Below, one piece after another: positions 4,918 through 33,592 of a DNA stretch of 34,122 nucleotides. Source of the DNA: Bacillota bacterium (GTDB taxonomy: Bacteria > Bacillota > Clostridia > CAKSNL01 > HGM11501). The stretch spans positions 1-34,122 of the forward strand of contig JAUZPY010000011.1 of assembly GCA_030705805.1 (NCBI GenBank), read 5' to 3'. The notes beneath the pieces are model-generated. The model did not search any database. It was not told the origin of the DNA and saw nothing but the letters and a program-made list of their open reading frames with translations. The translations under genes were made by a program, and so were the position numbers. Numbering within the stretch: position 1 is the first letter of the stretch; every line of letters starts with the position of its first letter.

Positions 4918-4946
4918 TTGACGTTTGTATACTATTGTAATATAAT
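4918..4946 (+). promoter_or_regulatory. Promoter of the short-RHH / Ltp operon
   Basis: TTGACG (4918-4923), 17 bases, TATAAT (4941-4946). The start site would be near 4953, leaving a leader of about 160 bases before the first ATG at 5112. Confidence 0.75.
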
Positions 4947-4952
4947 CGCATA

Positions 4953-5104
4953 TAGAAATAATTGCTATTTTCTTTAACGGCTATAGCAGAACATGATATT
5001 ACTATACTTCCGGTATTTGAAATAGCCGTTATAGTATTATCTTTCGGTGCGGTTACGGAGGGTTATTTAAACGAAACGAACAAAGATTACTAACCCGGAG
5101 GTGC
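4953..5104 (+). other. Long structured 5' leader
   Basis: Between the promoter and the first ORF there are about 150 non-coding bases with clear pairing: AACGGCTAT (4977-4985) with ATAGCCGTT (5022-5030), enclosing a small ATAC/GTAT hairpin with loop TTCCG; and GGGTTA with TAACCC around 5055-5095, just before the GGAGGTG ribosome binding site (about 5097-5103). This could be a cis-regulatory RNA. I checked by eye for the hallmark bases of common riboswitches (c-di-GMP, SAM, TPP, T-box) and did not find them. Confidence 0.45.
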
Positions 5105-5111
5105 CTTATAT

Positions 5112-5243
5112 ATGTCTGATAAAAAATTAATTATACCTTCTAAAAAATACAAGGGAGACACTTCTGTTGTCTCGGCAAGGCTGCCAAATGGAATGATAAA
5201 GGATTTAGACAAGATTGCTGAAGATACAGAACAACAAATATAA
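5112..5243 (+). CDS. Short RHH-like peptide (43 residues)
   Basis: A small ORF with a very strong GGAGGTG site. The peptide begins MSDKKLIIPSKKYKGD and continues TSVVSARLPNGMIKDLDKIA, which matches the beta strand and first helix of ribbon-helix-helix (CopG/MetJ-like) proteins. It stops after EDTEQQI, just where the second helix should begin, so the DNA-binding fold is incomplete. Full-length relatives have about 20 more residues, so this may be a natural truncation or a decayed gene; it is still well placed for translation. It precedes the Ltp-domain gene by 16 bases in one operon. Confidence 0.65.
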   Translation: MSDKKLIIPSKKYKGDTSVVSARLPNGMIKDLDKIAEDTEQQI

Positions 5244-5259
5244 TTTTAGGAGGACAATC

Positions 5260-6108
5260 ATGAAATGTAATCAATGCGGCACAGAATTCGAGGCTAATTT
5301 TTGCCCAAACTGCGGAGCTCCGGCGGTAAATGTTCCGGAAGCACAGCCGGTAAGCAATGCACAAAATGTACGGCAAACGATCAATTACGGTCAGACACCC
5401 ATTCAGCCTGTCCAAAAGACGAAAAAGCCCATATACAGGAAATGGTGGTTTTGGGTTATCGTCGCTGTTGTCTTTATCGGTGTAATAGCCAATCTTGATG
5501 ATAACGGCAATACAACCGAGAGCGGCACAGTAAGCAGCAATGTCAATTCTGCGGAAAGCAGCGATACAACAAAAAATGATATAAACAGTAAAAAGGTTGA
5601 AGTAACTGTTGTTGACTTTAGTTCAATGGATCAGGCTGCAATTCAAAGTTGGGCAGATACAAAAAAAGTCACTTGTGAAATTACCGAGGATTATTCTGAG
5701 TCAGCGGCAAAAGGCTCTTTAATCAGCCAGAGTGTAAAGGCCGGAGACACTGTTCAAGAAGGCGATACAATAAAAATAGTTTTTTCACTTGGGAAAAAGC
5801 CGTCCGCCGAATATATGAATGCTCTTAAACAAGCTGAATCCTATTCAAAGACAATGCATATGTCAAAAAAGGGAATCTATGATCAGTTAACATCTGAATA
5901 CGGCGGAAAATTCCCGGCTGATGCTGCACAATATGCGATTGATAACGTAAAAGCTGATTGGAATTCTAATGCTTTGGAGCAGGCAAAATCATATCAAGAA
6001 ACAATGAGTATGTCAAAGAGCGCAGTATATGATCAATTGATATCTGAATATGGCGGCAAATTTACAAAAGAAGAAGCGCAATATGCCGTTGCTCATCTAG
6101 ATAATTAA
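5260..6108 (+). CDS. Zinc-ribbon / TM / PASTA-like / double Ltp-domain surface protein
   Basis: 282 residues from the ATG at 5260, right after TAGGAGGA. Order of parts: a zinc ribbon at 3-18 (CNQCG...CPNCG); a Pro/Gln-rich linker; one membrane helix at about 61-79 (WWFWVIVAVVFIGVIANL); a Ser/Thr/Asn-rich spacer; a PASTA-like domain at about 112-168 (VEVTVVDF...KAGDTVQEGDTIKIVFSLG); and two copies of an Ltp motif, at about 178-220 and 238-280, each reading like MSKxxxYDQLxSEYGGKF. Ltp domains (PF07553) occur in host-surface lipoproteins; the phage TP-J34 Ltp protein blocks DNA injection by other phages. Here the ribbon would lie inside the cell and the Ltp repeats outside. Function as a phage-exclusion or surface-sensing protein is an inference. 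Confidence 0.85.
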   Translation: MKCNQCGTEFEANFCPNCGAPAVNVPEAQPVSNAQNVRQTINYGQTPIQPVQKTKKPIYRKWWFWVIVAVVFIGVIANLDDNGNTTESGTVSSNVNSAESSDTTKNDINSKKVEVTVVDFSSMDQAAIQSWADTKKVTCEITEDYSESAAKGSLISQSVKAGDTVQEGDTIKIVFSLGKKPSAEYMNALKQAESYSKTMHMSKKGIYDQLTSEYGGKFPADAAQYAIDNVKADWNSNALEQAKSYQETMSMSKSAVYDQLISEYGGKFTKEEAQYAVAHLDN

Positions 6109-6135
6109 TATGTTAATTTAATGTGGTAATTATAT

Positions 6136-6186
6136 AAGAGCCGTGTTTACTGCTGGAAGTCAGTAATGAATACGGCTCTTTTTTGT
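6136..6186 (+). terminator. Terminator of the Ltp operon
   Basis: AAGAGCCGT (6136-6144) pairs with ACGGCTCTT (6172-6180), followed by TTTTG. A nested TTACTG/CAGTAA hairpin lies inside the loop. Confidence 0.85.
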
Positions 6187-6282
6187 TTTGGTGAGTCTTG
6201 AAGGTTTACAATGCTAAGTAATTGAAATTGCAAAACTACGGACTATGGTTATAAAAAAGTTATAGAAAATCTCTCTTTTTAG

Positions 6283-6311
6283 TTGATTGAATTTTTCTAT
6301 AGTGGTATAAT
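6283..6311 (+). promoter_or_regulatory. Promoter of the ybaK / GH43 pair
   Basis: TTGATT (6283-6288), 17 bases, TATAAT (6306-6311), placed 27 bases before the ybaK ATG. Confidence 0.65.
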
Positions 6312-6338
6312 TGTAAAAAAATATATGGAGCGCTAAAA

Positions 6339-6818
6339 ATGAAAGATAATTACAAAACTAATGCAATGAGAATACTGGATAGTGCAAATATTTCTTATGA
6401 AGCTTACAGCTATGAGGGAAACGATGGCAAAATAGACGGCATTTCCGTTGCTGATAAAGTAGGGCAGCCTTATGAAAAGGTATTTAAGACCTTAGTAACT
6501 GTTGCGCCTTCAAAGTTATATTATGTTTTTGTTATTCCCGTAGACAAGGAGCTGAATTTGAAAGCAGCTGCAAAGGCGGTGGGAGAGAAGTCTGTTGAGA
6601 TGATTAAAGTAACCGACATAAATAAAGTAACAGGCTACATAAGGGGCGGCTGTTCTCCTGTCGGCATGAAAAAGGAGTATAAGACAGTCATTGATGAATC
6701 GGTACTTTTACAAGACAAATTTTTTGTAAGTGCCGGGAGAATAGGATTTCAGCTTGAAATTTCACCTTCCGAGCTTAAAAAAGCTGTAAACTATGATATT
6801 GCTCAAATTACATTATAG
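6339..6818 (+). CDS. ybaK: Cys-tRNA(Pro) deacylase, YbaK/EbsC family
   Basis: 159 residues, the normal length, ATG after a GGAG site. Hydrolyses Cys-tRNA(Pro) formed by prolyl-tRNA synthetase errors. Family marks: EKVFKTLVT, where the conserved Lys lies in the strand lining the pocket; FVIPVDKELNLKAAAKAVGEKSVEM; the glycine-rich YIRGGCSPVGMKK loop; and FVSAGRIGFQLEISPSEL near the end. The GH43 gene begins ten bases downstream, so the two share a transcript, though no functional link is evident. Confidence 0.92.
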   Translation: MKDNYKTNAMRILDSANISYEAYSYEGNDGKIDGISVADKVGQPYEKVFKTLVTVAPSKLYYVFVIPVDKELNLKAAAKAVGEKSVEMIKVTDINKVTGYIRGGCSPVGMKKEYKTVIDESVLLQDKFFVSAGRIGFQLEISPSELKKAVNYDIAQITL

Positions 6819-6828
6819 GGGGAAGATT

Positions 6829-9635: not shown

Positions 9636-11243
9636 TTAAAATTCGATGTGGGTATTTATGCAATGCTCGGCTATGCTTTCCTTTTCACAATCCGATTGGA
9701 TGATGTTGTCCTTAAATGTAAAGCCATCAATGTCATGCACATCAAAGAGGGAGCATTTGTTGCAGTTTATGAACTTGTTGCCTATAATTCTCATATTACT
9801 ATGATAATACTTACCTTCCTGGGCAGCTTCCCTGGGAGCAACATGAACAACGGCGTCTCCCCATATGGTGTAGCAGCACTCATCAAAGGTGTTGCCTTCA
9901 ATTAAAATATCCCTTGTTGCACCTGATTCATACCAGTAACTGCCGTTGCTTTCAAGTTTTATTGCGCTTCCGGAATTACTAAAATAGTTGTTTCTAACAA
10001 TTATTTTGCCTCTGCTTGCAAGCAGCATGCCTCTTCCGACACTGTAACTGGAGTCATTGTTTTCAAAAATAACATCCGGGAAAAGACGCACATCTTCAAC
10101 AACATCACCGAGGGTGACCTTATCTGTAGATTTATCAACATAAAGTATTGTGCACTCATTATTGATTTTTTCAACGCCTGTTACGTTAAACTTTTCGTAG
10201 TCTATCAGTGATTTGTTATTTGAAACTTCAATTTGAGTACCCTCATCGTATATATCAGTGCCGAGTTGCTGATCATGCATGTATTTTACTATTAAGTGAT
10301 CTTCGCCCTTGCCGATGATTTTTGTATATATGCCGTGTATGTTAAGAGAATCGTCCATCTGGGCCTTAAAATGAGAATTCTTTATATGAATGAGACCGGA
10401 GCAATGGACAAAATGTGTTGAGTCTGCATTTAAACTCAAAAAGCCCTTTTCTTTATATGTGTTTGTCATGTTGTCGATAGTGATATTTTCACATTTCTGT
10501 CCGAGAACGCCCATGCCGATTGCCGTATATACTGTATAATTTTCAATAAATGTGTTTTTGGAATCCTTTAAGAATATTGCAGGTGCATAGCGGCGCTCTG
10601 ACCAGATAATGATTGTATTGCCGAGTTTAACGTTTACGTCTACATGTTCAAAAAGAATTTTGTTATGCTCAATCTCCTTTGCCGTCACAGGATTGTATTT
10701 GTGGCAAAGGGCAACGTTTCTTGTATCCTCGCGAAGTCTTTCTTTATCTGTGTATCGCTCGGAAAAAGAATTTGCCATTGAAGAGTAATCATCGCCTCTT
10801 GAGTAACCGAAATAAAACTTACTGCCTGCAATAAAATATGGATGATTGCCATATAAATCAAGCACAAAGCTGCCGCTTCCGACCTCGGAGACTACGCCTG
10901 AAGCTGAATATGGGTGAAGGGTTTTTATTGAGAGGTTTTTAATTGTAATATTTTCGCAGCCATCCACTACAATCGGGTTCATGACACCTTCAAATAGGAA
11001 TTCACTTCCTCCACCGTCAATTGTAAAGTCTTTCATGTCCTTTAACAAAAAGCCTATCCTCTTAAAGCCTATTTCACCGTGATTTGATGTACAGTAAACA
11101 CCCTCCATTGCCATCTCCGGATTTAATGTATACGTACCCTTATCAAATTCAAGTGATTTGATGGAATGCTTCTTGCAGTAGAGGAGAGCATTCCTTATGT
11201 TAAAGGCCGTATTTTCTGATTTACAAAATTCCTTAAATTTCAT
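9636..11243 (-). CDS. GH110-like right-handed beta-helix enzyme (alpha-1,3-galactosidase family)
   Basis: 535 residues from the ATG at 11243, 11 bases after GGGGG. Hallmarks of GH110: CTSNHGEIGFKRIGFLLKDM; FTIDGGGSEFLFEGVMNP, a pectate-lyase-like rung; many Asn-rich rungs (ENITIKNLSI, NTFIENYTVYTAIGMGVL); and CSGLIHIKNSHFKAQMDDS with LNIHGIY, where the paired Asp residues are probably catalytic. Family members remove terminal alpha-1,3-linked galactose, as in blood-group B type glycans. No signal peptide is visible, so the enzyme seems to be intracellular. Directly upstream is a broken copy of a paralogous gene, so one functional copy remains. The GH43 and SGNH genes nearby suggest breakdown of galactose-containing, acetylated glycans. 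Confidence 0.85.
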   Translation of the reverse strand: MKFKEFCKSENTAFNIRNALLYCKKHSIKSLEFDKGTYTLNPEMAMEGVYCTSNHGEIGFKRIGFLLKDMKDFTIDGGGSEFLFEGVMNPIVVDGCENITIKNLSIKTLHPYSASGVVSEVGSGSFVLDLYGNHPYFIAGSKFYFGYSRGDDYSSMANSFSERYTDKERLREDTRNVALCHKYNPVTAKEIEHNKILFEHVDVNVKLGNTIIIWSERRYAPAIFLKDSKNTFIENYTVYTAIGMGVLGQKCENITIDNMTNTYKEKGFLSLNADSTHFVHCSGLIHIKNSHFKAQMDDSLNIHGIYTKIIGKGEDHLIVKYMHDQQLGTDIYDEGTQIEVSNNKSLIDYEKFNVTGVEKINNECTILYVDKSTDKVTLGDVVEDVRLFPDVIFENNDSSYSVGRGMLLASRGKIIVRNNYFSNSGSAIKLESNGSYWYESGATRDILIEGNTFDECCYTIWGDAVVHVAPREAAQEGKYYHSNMRIIGNKFINCNKCSLFDVHDIDGFTFKDNIIQSDCEKESIAEHCINTHIEF

Positions 11244-11248
11244 GGTAA

Positions 11249-11643
11249 TTAAAACCCCCTTAAATTTAGGCATCCATATTTGTGCAGTGGTCTGCCAGGC
11301 ATATCTCTGTAAAAAGTCTTTGTCATGTTTACAGCAAAATTTTCAAGCGTAATGTTCTCACTTTCATCAACTACAAATGGATTCAGTGTGCCATCAAATA
11401 AAAATTCACTTCCGTGTCCGTCTATTGTAAAACTTTGCATTTCCTTTATGTAAAAGCCAATTTTTTTATAACCGTTTGAACCATGATTTGAAGTGCAAAG
11501 CACTCCCTGAGAGGTCATATCAGGCGTAAAAATAGGCGCCTAAATCAAATTCAAGAACATCTACGCTGTCTCTGCAGTAATTTGTGGCATTAAAAAGATT
11601 GTACGACATATTGTGAGGTCATGCAAAACGCCTTAAAATTCAT
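11249..11643 (-). pseudogene. Decayed N-terminal remnant of a GH110-like paralogue
   Basis: An ATG at 11643 with an AAGGAG site opens MNFKAFC, like the intact gene (MKFKEFC). The reading frame then shifts: another frame gives MSYNLFNATNYCRDSVDVLEFD, matching FNIRNALLYCKKHSIKSLEFD of the intact protein, and a third shift gives QGVLCTSNHGSNGYKKIGF...FTIDGHGSEFLFDGTLNP, again matching. The sequence ends at LNLRGF and lacks the remaining 400 residues. Two frameshifts and a large 3' deletion make this a pseudogene created by tandem duplication. Confidence 0.85.
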
Positions 11644-29813: not shown

Positions 29814-29846
29814 AAATAAATCGCCTGATTGGCGCTTTATTTTTTG
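29813..29846 (+). terminator. Terminator of the kinase/dehydrogenase operon
   Basis: AAATAAA-t-CGCC pairs with GGCG-c-TTTATTT around TGATT, followed by T's. Confidence 0.85.
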
Positions 29847-29927
29847 TGGTGTTTACTTTATATATGTATTCTTTTTAGCGGTATATCTCTGTATTATCTG
29901 CAATTTAAAGTTTTTTGTGTAATTTTC

Positions 29928-29980
29928 TTGACTTTTTTTTATACAAATGATATCATTATATCAAAATATATTGATATCAT
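29928..29980 (+). promoter_or_regulatory. Promoter and palindromic operator of the restriction operon
   Basis: TTGACT (29928-29933), 17 bases, TATCAT (29951-29956). The -10 lies in the palindrome ATGATATCAT (29947-29956). A second copy, TGATATCAT, is at 29972-29980, and ATATCAA/TTGATAT (29958-29964 and 29971-29977) form a further inverted repeat. Such closely spaced short palindromes are the usual operators of ribbon-helix-helix repressors, one of which is the first gene. Confidence 0.75.
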
Positions 29981-29993
29981 AGAGGTGAAGCGA

Positions 29994-30179
29994 GTGGATG
30001 AAAAAATAAAACAAGTGCAAGTGCGACTAACTCCAGAAATGCACAGTAAATTAAAAGGCTCGCTGGCATATGAAGGGAAAAAGCTTGTGGACTTTTTTAA
30101 CGAAGCAGCAGAAGCTTATTTAAAAGACAGTAAGGCTTATGAAAAAAGCATTTCAAAAATAATCGGGGGTAAAAAATAA
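29994..30179 (+). CDS. Ribbon-helix-helix regulator of the restriction operon (61 residues)
   Basis: Starts at GTG 29994, five bases after AGAGGTGAA. The peptide has the Arc/CopG fold: KIKQVQVRLTPEMHSKLKGS is the DNA-reading strand and first helix, then LAYEGKKLVDFFNEAAEAYL is the second helix. Extension upstream to 29829 would add a hydrophobic run that covers the promoter and is not credible. The stop overlaps the hsdM ATG (TAATG). With its palindromic operator it probably represses the whole operon. It could instead be thought an antitoxin, but the partner is a methylase subunit, not a toxin. Confidence 0.82.
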   Translation: MDEKIKQVQVRLTPEMHSKLKGSLAYEGKKLVDFFNEAAEAYLKDSKAYEKSISKIIGGKK

Positions 30180-31741
30180 TGGCAGTGATGAATAGTACAA
30201 TAGAAAAGAAATTATGGGATGCGGCAGATTCGATGCGCACCAACTCAAAATTAAAATCTTCAGAATATGCAACTCCGGTTTTAGGATTAATATTTTTACG
30301 CTTTGCTGATTATCGTTTTACTTTAGCTGAAGAACGTGTTGCTAAAGAATTTGAAAATAGTCGGCGTTTACCGAGTAAAATTGATTATCAGCGTCAAGGT
30401 GTACTTTTTGTACCACCAACTGCAAGATATAATTATCTGTTGAACCTACCGGAGGAAGAAGACATTCAGCAGGCTGTTATTCAGGCCATGAAAGATATTG
30501 AGGATGAAAACCTATCATTAAAAGATGTTTTACCCAAGCAATACAGACGCGTTTCCAAGGATATTTTAATCTCCCTTATAAAAGCTTTTTCAGAAATTGA
30601 AATGCAGGAACATAACGGAGATACTTTTGGTGCGGTTTATGAATATTTCCTAAGCAAATTTGCACTTTCGGAAGGTCAAAAAGGTGGAGAATTCTTTACA
30701 CCTACCTCCCTCGTTAGACTAATTGTTGAAATATTGGAACCAAACAAGGGTTTATTACTGGATCCTGCATGCGGCAGTGGTGGTATGTTCGTCCAAAGTG
30801 GTAAATTTGTAAAAAGACATAGCGGTAACCCTGAAAGTGATATTAGTATTTTCGGACAAGAAAATATTGCTGATACTGTTCGCCTGTGCAAGATGAACCT
30901 TGCCGTTCACGGATTAGAGGGCGACGTAAAAGAGTGTAATACCTATTATCAGAATATTCATGGTTGTTATCACCGCATGAATTACATTATGGCGAATCCA
31001 CCGTTCAATGCAAAAGGCGTAGATAAAGAAAGAATCAAAGGCGATAAGCGTTATCCCTTTGGAATTCCTACCAACGATAATGCAAACTATCTTTGGATTC
31101 AAGAGTTTTATAGCGCAATGAAGCCTGGCGAAGGTAAAGCCGGTTTTGTTATGGCAAACTCTGCTGCTGATGCAAGAGGAACTGAGCTTGAAATACGAAA
31201 GCAAATTATTGAAAGCAAAGTTGTTGACGTAATGATTTCGATCGGCTCAAACTTTTTCTATACTGTTACTTTGCCTTGTACCCTTTGGTTTTTTGATAAC
31301 ATAAAAGTCCATCATAACAGCGACGATACTGTTTTGTTTATCGATGCAAGAAACACTTTCACTCAAATCGACCGTGCACATAGAGAGTTTTCTCTTGCTC
31401 AAATTGAATACATCGCTAACATTGCCCGCCTTTATCACAATAAACCAATTGAAAATCTTGAGGGCGGAGCTGATTTGCTGAAAGAGCTATTCCCTGATAA
31501 AAAATATCAGGACATCCCCGGACTTTGCAAGGTTGCAACGATTGATGAAATTGAAGCACAAGGGTGGAGCCTTAACCCAGGCCGCTATGTTGGTACGCAA
31601 ATTGAGGAATTTAACGAAGAAGACTTTTTAGAAAGCCTAACCGCATTAAATGCAGAGTTGCAGCAGCTTAACCAACAGGCACAACAGATAGAAAGGGCAA
31701 TAGAAGAAAACTTTCTTTTGTTGGTGAATGGAAATGAGTAA
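30179..31741 (+). CDS. hsdM: Type I restriction-modification system, methyltransferase subunit
   Basis: 520 residues. N-terminal helical domain (STIEKKLWDAADSMRTN ... ATPVLGLIFLRFADYRF), then the N6-adenine methylase: SAM site DPACGSGGMF (195-204), catalytic NPPF (273-276), plus GGEFFTPTSLVRLIVEILEP as the usual preamble. It methylates adenine in the asymmetric site set by HsdS and is also part of the restriction complex. The C-terminal part ends in a coiled helix (LTALNAELQQLNQQAQQIERAIEE) that contacts HsdS. Overlaps hsdS by a few bases. Confidence 0.95.
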   Translation: MAVMNSTIEKKLWDAADSMRTNSKLKSSEYATPVLGLIFLRFADYRFTLAEERVAKEFENSRRLPSKIDYQRQGVLFVPPTARYNYLLNLPEEEDIQQAVIQAMKDIEDENLSLKDVLPKQYRRVSKDILISLIKAFSEIEMQEHNGDTFGAVYEYFLSKFALSEGQKGGEFFTPTSLVRLIVEILEPNKGLLLDPACGSGGMFVQSGKFVKRHSGNPESDISIFGQENIADTVRLCKMNLAVHGLEGDVKECNTYYQNIHGCYHRMNYIMANPPFNAKGVDKERIKGDKRYPFGIPTNDNANYLWIQEFYSAMKPGEGKAGFVMANSAADARGTELEIRKQIIESKVVDVMISIGSNFFYTVTLPCTLWFFDNIKVHHNSDDTVLFIDARNTFTQIDRAHREFSLAQIEYIANIARLYHNKPIENLEGGADLLKELFPDKKYQDIPGLCKVATIDEIEAQGWSLNPGRYVGTQIEEFNEEDFLESLTALNAELQQLNQQAQQIERAIEENFLLLVNGNE

Positions 31742-32933
31742 ACCTTTATCCGATATAGTAGAATATAATCCTAAAGTTACTATAAAACGTGGCGATTTAG
31801 TTAACTATATTCCAATGGAAGAGATCGTGCCAAATCAAAGATATGTTGAATCAACGCAACAGAGAGTATTTTCTGGCGGTTCAAAATTTGAAAATAATGA
31901 TATTATTTTTGCAAGAATTACTCCTTGTCTGCAAAACAGAAAAATAGCACAATACAAATCGCAAGCACAAAACCCAGCAGCAGGTTCTACTGAGTACTTC
32001 GTTTTTCGTTCCATACCAAATGTTTCTGATAGTTCATTTGTTTATTACTTGCTAAAATCTGATTTTGTTGTAGAGCCAGCCATAAAAAGTATGAAAGGTG
32101 CATCGGGAAGGCAAAGAGCGGAGATACAACCAATTTTGGATTTGCATCTTCAAATTCCTTCATATGATACACAGATTAAGATAGGAAAAATTCTCTCCGC
32201 CTACGATGAGCAGATTGAAAATAACAATCGCAGAATTTCTATTTTGGAAGAAATGGCGCAGAAAGTATATCGTGAATGGTTTGTGCACTTCCGTTTTCCC
32301 GGCCATGAGAACTGTAAAATGGTTGAGTCTGAGTTTGGCACGATTCCTCAAGGATGGGAATATCTTGATTTGTTTGAGTGCTCAGATATTCAATATGGAT
32401 TTGCGTTTAAATCGAAACTGTTCTGCAATGATTCTTCGTTACACCCAGTTGTAAGGATACGCGACATATTGGGGAACAAAACAGAAACATTTTCGCCTGA
32501 AATGCCTAATCAAAAATACCTCCTTAATGAGGGGGATATTCTAATTGGAATGGATGGAATCTTCCATATGAATCAATGGAGTGGAGGAGCTGCATATTTA
32601 AACCAGCGAGTTGTTAGAATTCGTCCTCGATGTATGTCGACTTTTCAGCTTTATTATTACTTGGAACCAATAATTAAAGATTTGGAAACAGTAATAACGG
32701 GAACAACCGTTGCACATCTGAGTGATGTGGATCTTAAAAAAATAAAAGTTTTGGTGGCTGATAAAGATACACAGATTAAAGCAGATTCCATGATGCACTC
32801 ATTATTGAATCAAAAATTAAACTTATTAAATAAAAACACCATTCTACAAAAAACTCGTGATTTGTTGCTTCCAACACTCATCAACGGCGACATTGATGTT
32901 TCGCAGTTTGATATTAAGATAAAGGAGGAGTGA
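31728..32933 (+). CDS. hsdS: Type I restriction-modification system, specificity subunit
   Basis: About 400 residues with two target-recognition domains, each followed by a helical spacer. The first TRD (about 1-150) includes FENNDIIFARITPCLQNRKIAQ and SMKGASGRQRAEIQPILDLHLQIPS; its spacer is IGKILSAYDEQIENNNRRISILEEMAQKVYREWF. The second TRD begins at PQGWEYLDLFECSDIQYGFAFK and ends in KADSMMHSLLNQKLNLLNKN. Domain order is normal for HsdS. The start may be 31728 or the ATG at 31734, both within the end of hsdM. Ends as the next gene begins (TGATG). Confidence 0.93.
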   Translation: MEMSKPLSDIVEYNPKVTIKRGDLVNYIPMEEIVPNQRYVESTQQRVFSGGSKFENNDIIFARITPCLQNRKIAQYKSQAQNPAAGSTEYFVFRSIPNVSDSSFVYYLLKSDFVVEPAIKSMKGASGRQRAEIQPILDLHLQIPSYDTQIKIGKILSAYDEQIENNNRRISILEEMAQKVYREWFVHFRFPGHENCKMVESEFGTIPQGWEYLDLFECSDIQYGFAFKSKLFCNDSSLHPVVRIRDILGNKTETFSPEMPNQKYLLNEGDILIGMDGIFHMNQWSGGAAYLNQRVVRIRPRCMSTFQLYYYLEPIIKDLETVITGTTVAHLSDVDLKKIKVLVADKDTQIKADSMMHSLLNQKLNLLNKNTILQKTRDLLLPTLINGDIDVSQFDIKIKEE

Positions 32934-33592
32934 TGATGGAAAATAAGCAAAAAGTTTTACAGTGTTACTCTTGCGGGAACGAAACATTAATGAATTTGGT
33001 TGGTGAACATAGAAGTGATTGGGGTTGCCCTGAAGACCTACACGAAACCTGTAACTATCAACTGTATATTTGTCCAATTTGTGGCAAGCCAACACTTTTA
33101 GAGACATATTGGAATGAATGTCAACAGAGATACACATATAATGGCGAAATAGAAGACTACGAAGAGCATACCATTTTATTCCCTGTTAGCACAATTAAGA
33201 CTAACAACTTGCCTGTGGAGGTCAAATCCGCTTTTGAATCAGCTTTGAAAACTAAAAATATTGATACAGCGGTTTGTTTAATCGCTCTTAGACGAACACT
33301 CGAAATAGTTTGTAAAGAGAAAGGTGCAGTCGGACATAACCTTTGGAAAAAGATTGAGGATCTCTCCAACAAGGGTATTTTGCCACCTGAATTAAAGCAT
33401 GCCTCCGTTATTACTAAAACTTATGGTAATATGGGTGCGCATGATGCTGATATTTCTACAACAAAACAAGAGTTAGAACAAGTTATTGAATTCGTTCAAT
33501 ATATCTTAGACTATCTTTATATATTACCTGCCAAAATAAATAAGATCCAAGAAAAAATGGCAAGAGCAAAGGACGAGGAGGGAGAAGAATGA
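32933..33592 (+). CDS. Zinc-ribbon plus DUF4145 protein inside the hsd operon
   Basis: 219 residues, ATG at 32933 with AAGGAGGAG and overlapping the hsdS stop; it overlaps the hsdR start by ATGA. The N-terminus has four Cys in two pairs (CYSCGNE, ICPICGKP, with a further Cys pair CPEDLHETC between), a zinc ribbon. The C-terminal domain (VKSAFESALKTKNIDTAVCLIALRRTLEIVCKEKGA...LWKKIEDLSNKGILPPEL...GNMGAHDADISTTKQELEQVIEFVQYIL) is DUF4145, a HEPN-like helical fold; LRRTLE and NMGAHD are its conserved places. Such genes are seen between hsdS and hsdR in some Type I operons; the role is unproven. Confidence 0.88.
   Translation: MMENKQKVLQCYSCGNETLMNLVGEHRSDWGCPEDLHETCNYQLYICPICGKPTLLETYWNECQQRYTYNGEIEDYEEHTILFPVSTIKTNNLPVEVKSAFESALKTKNIDTAVCLIALRRTLEIVCKEKGAVGHNLWKKIEDLSNKGILPPELKHASVITKTYGNMGAHDADISTTKQELEQVIEFVQYILDYLYILPAKINKIQEKMARAKDEEGEE

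Follow-up and report, generated by a model that had tools for sequence, protein, structure and literature searches.

A probable remnant of a collapsed SPFH/zinc-ribbon operon carries an intact Ltp-type exclusion gene in a clostridial genome

In this study we have analysed a 34,122-nucleotide stretch of DNA (the window) from a draft metagenome-assembled genome (MAG) of 152 contigs, the one genome of its genus that was covered. The explanation that we favour, and that we consider probable on the whole, is that the locus at 4918-6187 is what remains of a collapsed SPFH/zinc-ribbon operon, with an intact Ltp-type exclusion gene at its end. This explanation builds on homologies, gene orders, gene stubs and a fold prediction, which are laid out below; all features of the locus lie on the plus strand.

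The gene directly upstream of the Ltp gene (5112-5243) encodes a peptide of 43 aa which, as the sequence-only reading had described, is RHH-like and has no second helix. It retains the strand and helix 1 and shows 74-79% identity to the full-length RHH proteins of two other loci, L005 and L027, over their residues 1-42. The full-length relatives are 67-70 aa long, and the peptide, holding only residues 1-41 of 67 (78% identity), equals the first two thirds of such a protein. The full-length L005 protein is recognised by Pfam as RHH_1 (5.7e-6), while the peptide from the window matches no Pfam family, and no full-length copy of the gene was found elsewhere in the window genome. A frameshift as the cause of the short gene is ruled out: the homology ends at 5234, which leaves 25 bases to the Ltp start codon, and the missing 26 residues need 78. 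When 391 genomes of the class were searched, seven further strong relatives (L063-L069) were found in addition to L005 and L027. All nine of these closest clear relatives are full length and head SPFH/Band-7 (Band_7_1) and zinc-ribbon membrane genes, the SPFH proteins often having C-terminal zinc ribbons; between RHH and SPFH there is one zinc-ribbon gene in L065 and one transmembrane (TM) gene in both L005 and L027. Weaker relatives either have other neighbours (L070, L071) or stop at the contig end (L072). The truncated RHH-Ltp pair itself, for which the earlier reading had suggested searching other genomes, was not found there; the RHH gene accompanies the SPFH operon (nine of nine), which rules out RHH-Ltp as a conserved pair. 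At 29829-33592 of the window, 24 kb from the Ltp locus, the type I restriction-modification genes HsdM and HsdS are preceded by a small RHH-like ORF, and a DUF4145 protein encoded in the same region matches PD-T7-4 weakly.

A good promoter is present upstream of these genes: TTGACG-TTTGTATACTATTGTAA-TATAAT (4918-4946) has 11 of the 12 consensus bases and a 17-bp spacer, within which lies a putative RHH operator. The same -35/spacer/-10 block, TTGACNNNTGTAWACATTTGTANTATAAT, recurs in seven other loci (L005, L027, L063, L064, L066, L067 and L068), where it is located either before the RHH gene or before a channel gene that precedes the RHH gene. Scored with a matrix built from five loci other than the window, the window promoter reaches 24.7, as compared with 9.6 for the next best position in the window and 23.2 for the best of 100 random 34-kb sequences. 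The operator part of the spacer taken alone is unexceptional, ranking third among 68,214 window positions; it is only its fixed place between the -35 and the -10 that would make it telling. The TGTAWACATTTGTA box is a putative target of the full-length L005 RHH protein.

The stretch that follows the promoter (4953-5111) had been taken for a structured leader, which the folding calculations do not bear out. Its folding energy of -31.3 kcal/mol is close to the mean of -29.9 for shuffled sequences (z -0.35; 63 of 200 shuffles are as good) and no Rfam family fits it, so a structured leader RNA or riboswitch is ruled out, as is a repeated element, since the leader is present in a single copy in the genome. 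What it does contain, in frame, is the C-terminus of a channel protein. An alignment of the frame LLFSLTAIAEHDITILPVFEIAVIVLSFGAVTEGYLNETNKDY to an L027 ORF (535-1314 of that locus) with a Pfam channel domain (Ion_trans, 7.6e-28) covers residues 218-254 of the latter; it scores 66, the maximum of 2000 shuffles being 57, and no piece among 3240 taken from the window in six frames scores as high. In L027 the channel gene is positioned directly upstream of the RHH gene, i.e. in the same relative place as the aligned frame in the window. As judged from this alignment, the leader is what is left of an ion-channel gene, namely a stub of its C-terminal ~40 codons (4962-5093). A TM-Ltp protein followed directly by an ion-channel gene of the same family is encoded at L125:6184-7528.

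In L005 (Ruminococcaceae MAG RUG11462) the gene order is promoter, RHH, TM protein, SPFH protein with zinc ribbons, TM protein, five further zinc-ribbon proteins and, as the last gene, one encoding a zinc ribbon-TM-PASTA-Ltp-Ltp protein that is 57% identical to the window protein over its full length. In L027 the ion channel lies between promoter and RHH, and the product of the last gene has the same zinc-ribbon/TM head joined to another C-terminal part. The promoter, the regulator gene and the last gene are therefore common to the window locus and to SPFH/zinc-ribbon operons. RHH, SPFH and Ltp genes are united in one operon in L005 only, and channel, RHH, SPFH and Ltp genes together occur in no single locus. 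Since the RHH relatives belong to such operons, the promoter and operator are shared and the L005 operon ends in the Ltp gene, we infer that the window locus is a reduced operon: with deletion as the direction of change, two deletions would have left only the promoter, a pair of stubs and the Ltp gene, which is intact. The RHH/Ltp deletion junction is placed at 5228-5259: RHH homology ends near 5234, and the ribosome site and start codon of the Ltp gene come directly after. The corresponding interval in L005 is about 5.3 kb long and holds eight genes. The difference may also reflect gene gain in L005 instead of loss in the window, but the two cut stubs in the window argue for loss. A comparison within the family at the YbaK neighbour, looking for an empty site, found differing flanks.

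A comparable situation is seen in L004 (UBA5396). At 5275-6819 of this locus the SPFH gene breaks off at residue 215 of 434. The final 18 codons of a zinc-ribbon gene are fused to it out of frame, and an intact Ltp gene comes directly after the join. By the evidence of this join, L004 is a second, independent operon collapse that spared the Ltp gene. An HTH gene stands in L004 where the RHH regulator would be. Two further observations concern other parts of the window: a short ORF at 11249-11518 is similar to the N-terminal portion of an adjacent protein of 545 aa (9636-11273) and looks like a truncated tandem duplicate, and two adjacent paralogous small HTH-like proteins of 140 and 106 aa are encoded on the minus strand at 1009-1798.

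The Ltp gene is an intact ORF (5260-6108) for a protein of 282 aa that has the zinc-ribbon/TM/PASTA/double-Ltp architecture already recognised in the sequence-only reading, with PASTA and both Ltp repeats above their Pfam cutoffs (Ltp 1.4e-48, PASTA 5.5e-9). The zinc ribbon (5263-5322) is a CxxC-x8-CxxC motif with Cys 3, 6, 15 and 18; its matches to Pfam zinc ribbons are weak and sub-threshold only. A single TM helix (aa about 61-79, 5440-5496), seen in the sequence as well as in the AlphaFold2 (AF2) model, is preceded by a K/R-rich stretch (KTKKPIYRK) and followed on its outer side by an acidic one (NLDDN), charges from which an N-in/C-out topology may be inferred. A Ser/Thr/Asn-rich linker leads to the PASTA domain (aa 115-176, 5602-5787), behind which Ltp repeats 1 (5809-5949, 87.7 bits) and 2 (5956-6099, 90.8 bits) both exceed the curated PF07553 cutoff of 23.2 bits. 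The protein has no lipobox, its anchor being the zinc ribbon and TM helix, and Pfam detects no kinase domain in its 282 aa. Downstream lies a terminator hairpin (6136-6187, inverted repeat I3) with 20-nt arms that are 80% paired, a 5-nt loop and a T run. A sub-threshold Rfam L20_leader match (6062-6190; 31.1 bits against a gathering threshold of 58.7), which spans the 3' end of the Ltp gene and the terminator, is probably this hairpin. A PADLOC match to PD-T4-6 was set aside as it spans TM and PASTA alone and is uninformative on function.

PHROGs places the window protein in a superinfection exclusion family (8.1e-60), and the best solved relative by sequence is 4eqq, the Ltp protein of phage TP-J34 (5.8e-21). 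In the AF2 model, which was built on seven relatives, pLDDT lies at about 90 or higher from the PASTA domain almost to the C-terminal end, and with few exceptions it exceeds 90 in PASTA and the two Ltp repeats. The structure prediction for which the earlier reading had called agrees well with this assignment: the modelled Ltp part has the tandem helix-turn-helix fold of 4eqq and superimposes on it with a TM-score of 0.94 (rmsd 1.2, 48% identity, Foldseek E 3.7e-10). The modelled PASTA part overlays the PASTA domains of PrkC and StkP; the window protein resembles these PASTA kinases in PASTA fold and TM placement and differs in having no kinase and one PASTA only. The Ltp part is acidic, with 10 basic and 14 acidic residues, and is strongly constrained (pN 0.09-0.13, with pS saturated). 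The window protein is the sole Ltp protein of its genome.

The TP-J34 Ltp protein (PF07553, PDB 4eqq), a superinfection exclusion lipoprotein of a Streptococcus thermophilus phage, prevents the injection of phage DNA; the partner of its acidic repeats is the tape measure protein of the infecting phage (PMC3952083). The window protein is similar in its two Ltp repeats of the same fold, its linker, its outward display at the cytoplasmic membrane and the charge of its repeat domain (net -4 in the window and in the aligned TP-J34 part), whereas it differs in having a zinc ribbon and TM helix for the lipobox and an added PASTA domain, and in being chromosomal and outside a lysogeny module. The replacement of the lipobox, which the sequence-only reading had singled out, is real but not special, since it is also found in Ruminococcus phage phiRg507T2_3 and in several clostridial Ltp proteins. 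Gp22 of this phage, annotated as superinfection exclusion, likewise consists of a zinc ribbon, a TM helix and two Ltp repeats; unlike the window protein it is without PASTA and is encoded on a phage, between repressor and integrase. The anchor type is therefore already used by phages, and the lipobox marks the prototype and not the whole family.

Close relatives with the full PASTA-Ltp arrangement, but without the SPFH operon, are found in prophages in four loci: beside integrase and CI-type repressor genes in L006 and L124, with major tail and tape measure genes in L007 and with endolysin and holin genes in L123. Homologues are thus not confined to the company of cell-wall genes, and the association of Ltp with phages holds. 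Phage records with plainer Ltp proteins have them between repressor and integrase, while the window gene is flanked by the cellular genes Dabb and YbaK and not by a prophage lysogeny module. In the PASTA-Ltp tree operon and phage forms are not cleanly separated, and the prophage form L123 stands beside the operon form L005; the Ltp gene therefore moves between contexts.

Given the homology and fold of the Ltp part, its acidity and constraint, the prophage relatives and the known action of the TP-J34 protein, exclusion at DNA entry is the best reading: the window protein likely acts as a chromosomal superinfection exclusion factor that would block DNA entry at the tape measure protein. A role as a cellular envelope protein, with PASTA binding peptidoglycan, the Ltp repeats binding a wall or membrane partner and the zinc ribbon docking to SPFH scaffolds in a YdjI-like stress response that has no part in phage exclusion here, appears unlikely to us. 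In its favour, the Ltp gene is the last gene of an L005 SPFH/zinc-ribbon operon that resembles B. subtilis pspA-ydjGHI, a known operon of this type in which YdjI is the SPFH protein with a zinc ribbon (PMC8581546; PMC11237479). The intact relatives of the window share with pspA-ydjGHI the SPFH, zinc-ribbon and zinc-ribbon membrane proteins; unlike it they are RHH-headed, with no PspA or TPM protein seen, and the window itself has lost SPFH. Also consistent with an envelope role are the other payloads on the same zinc-ribbon/TM head beside SPFH genes in L027, L028 and L029. However, the Ltp gene is intact both in the window genome, which has lost the SPFH partner, and in L004, where that partner is cut; full PASTA-Ltp relatives occur in prophages; and the Ltp repeats are the very part shown to exclude phages in TP-J34 (PMC3952083).

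That an intact operon was mis-joined in the draft assembly is very improbable. With 152 contigs and no strain-level relative for comparison such an artefact is conceivable, but it needs two separate joins within 330 bases, it should have left an SPFH gene elsewhere, when the window genome (94% complete) has no SPFH homologue beyond a zinc-ribbon match, at the locus or outside it, and a similar collapse is seen in L004. Least probable of all is a regulated three-part exclusion locus in which a leader RNA and a small RHH-like peptide control the Ltp gene: although all parts sit behind one promoter with good ribosome sites and a short ORF could influence how the gene behind it is translated, leader structure is at chance level and explained by the channel stub, the peptide is without the helix 2 that RHH dimers need, and the pair did not turn up with the RHH relatives of the 391 genomes. 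The phage-exclusion reading proposed earlier is hence retained as far as the homology of the Ltp part to the TP-J34 protein goes, in sequence and fold, and given up for leader, RHH peptide and Ltp gene as a designed unit; sensing of the envelope by the locus finds no support here.

Under the collapsed-operon explanation, the ancestral order would have been promoter, ion channel, RHH regulator, TM protein, SPFH/zinc-ribbon protein, zinc-ribbon membrane genes and Ltp. One deletion would have removed the channel gene except for its C-terminus and a second RHH helix 2 together with all that followed up to, but not including, the last gene, so that the Ltp gene would now lie directly behind the operon promoter, presumably derepressed through loss of the RHH regulator. 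The zinc ribbon and TM helix would hold the protein in the membrane, with the linker and the PASTA domain, a possible wall-side stalk, displaying the two Ltp repeats outside; by homology to TP-J34, these may stop DNA passage from an infecting tailed phage by binding its tape measure protein. The zinc ribbon could serve as a docking point for SPFH proteins.

The same zinc-ribbon/TM head with differing C-terminal parts occurs near SPFH-type genes at L027:6534-7190, L028:6001-7230 (with DUF6591) and L029:5968-7212, and these parts are possibly swappable payloads. We offer only tentatively the wider idea that clostridial SPFH/zinc-ribbon operons carry swappable outward payloads under RHH repression, including Ltp blockers concentrated at SPFH patches, of which the window would hold a collapsed, constitutively expressed example.

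The Ltp kind of protein, its zinc-ribbon/TM anchor in annotated phages and SPFH/zinc-ribbon operons are all already known. What appears to be new, on the gene order of L005, is that a cellular SPFH/zinc-ribbon operon includes a gene for an Ltp exclusion protein, and our literature search found no published link between the two. For the reading of raw genomes, the locus illustrates that a gene stub can mimic a novel small regulator. The zinc-ribbon head common to SPFH-operon proteins provides a testable idea for how blockers may be positioned in the membrane. Finally, while prophages are the known source of Ltp exclusion proteins, the present one appears wired into an operon of the cellular envelope-stress type, and its retention through operon collapse, twice independently, suggests that bacteria have domesticated the phage's own exclusion tool.
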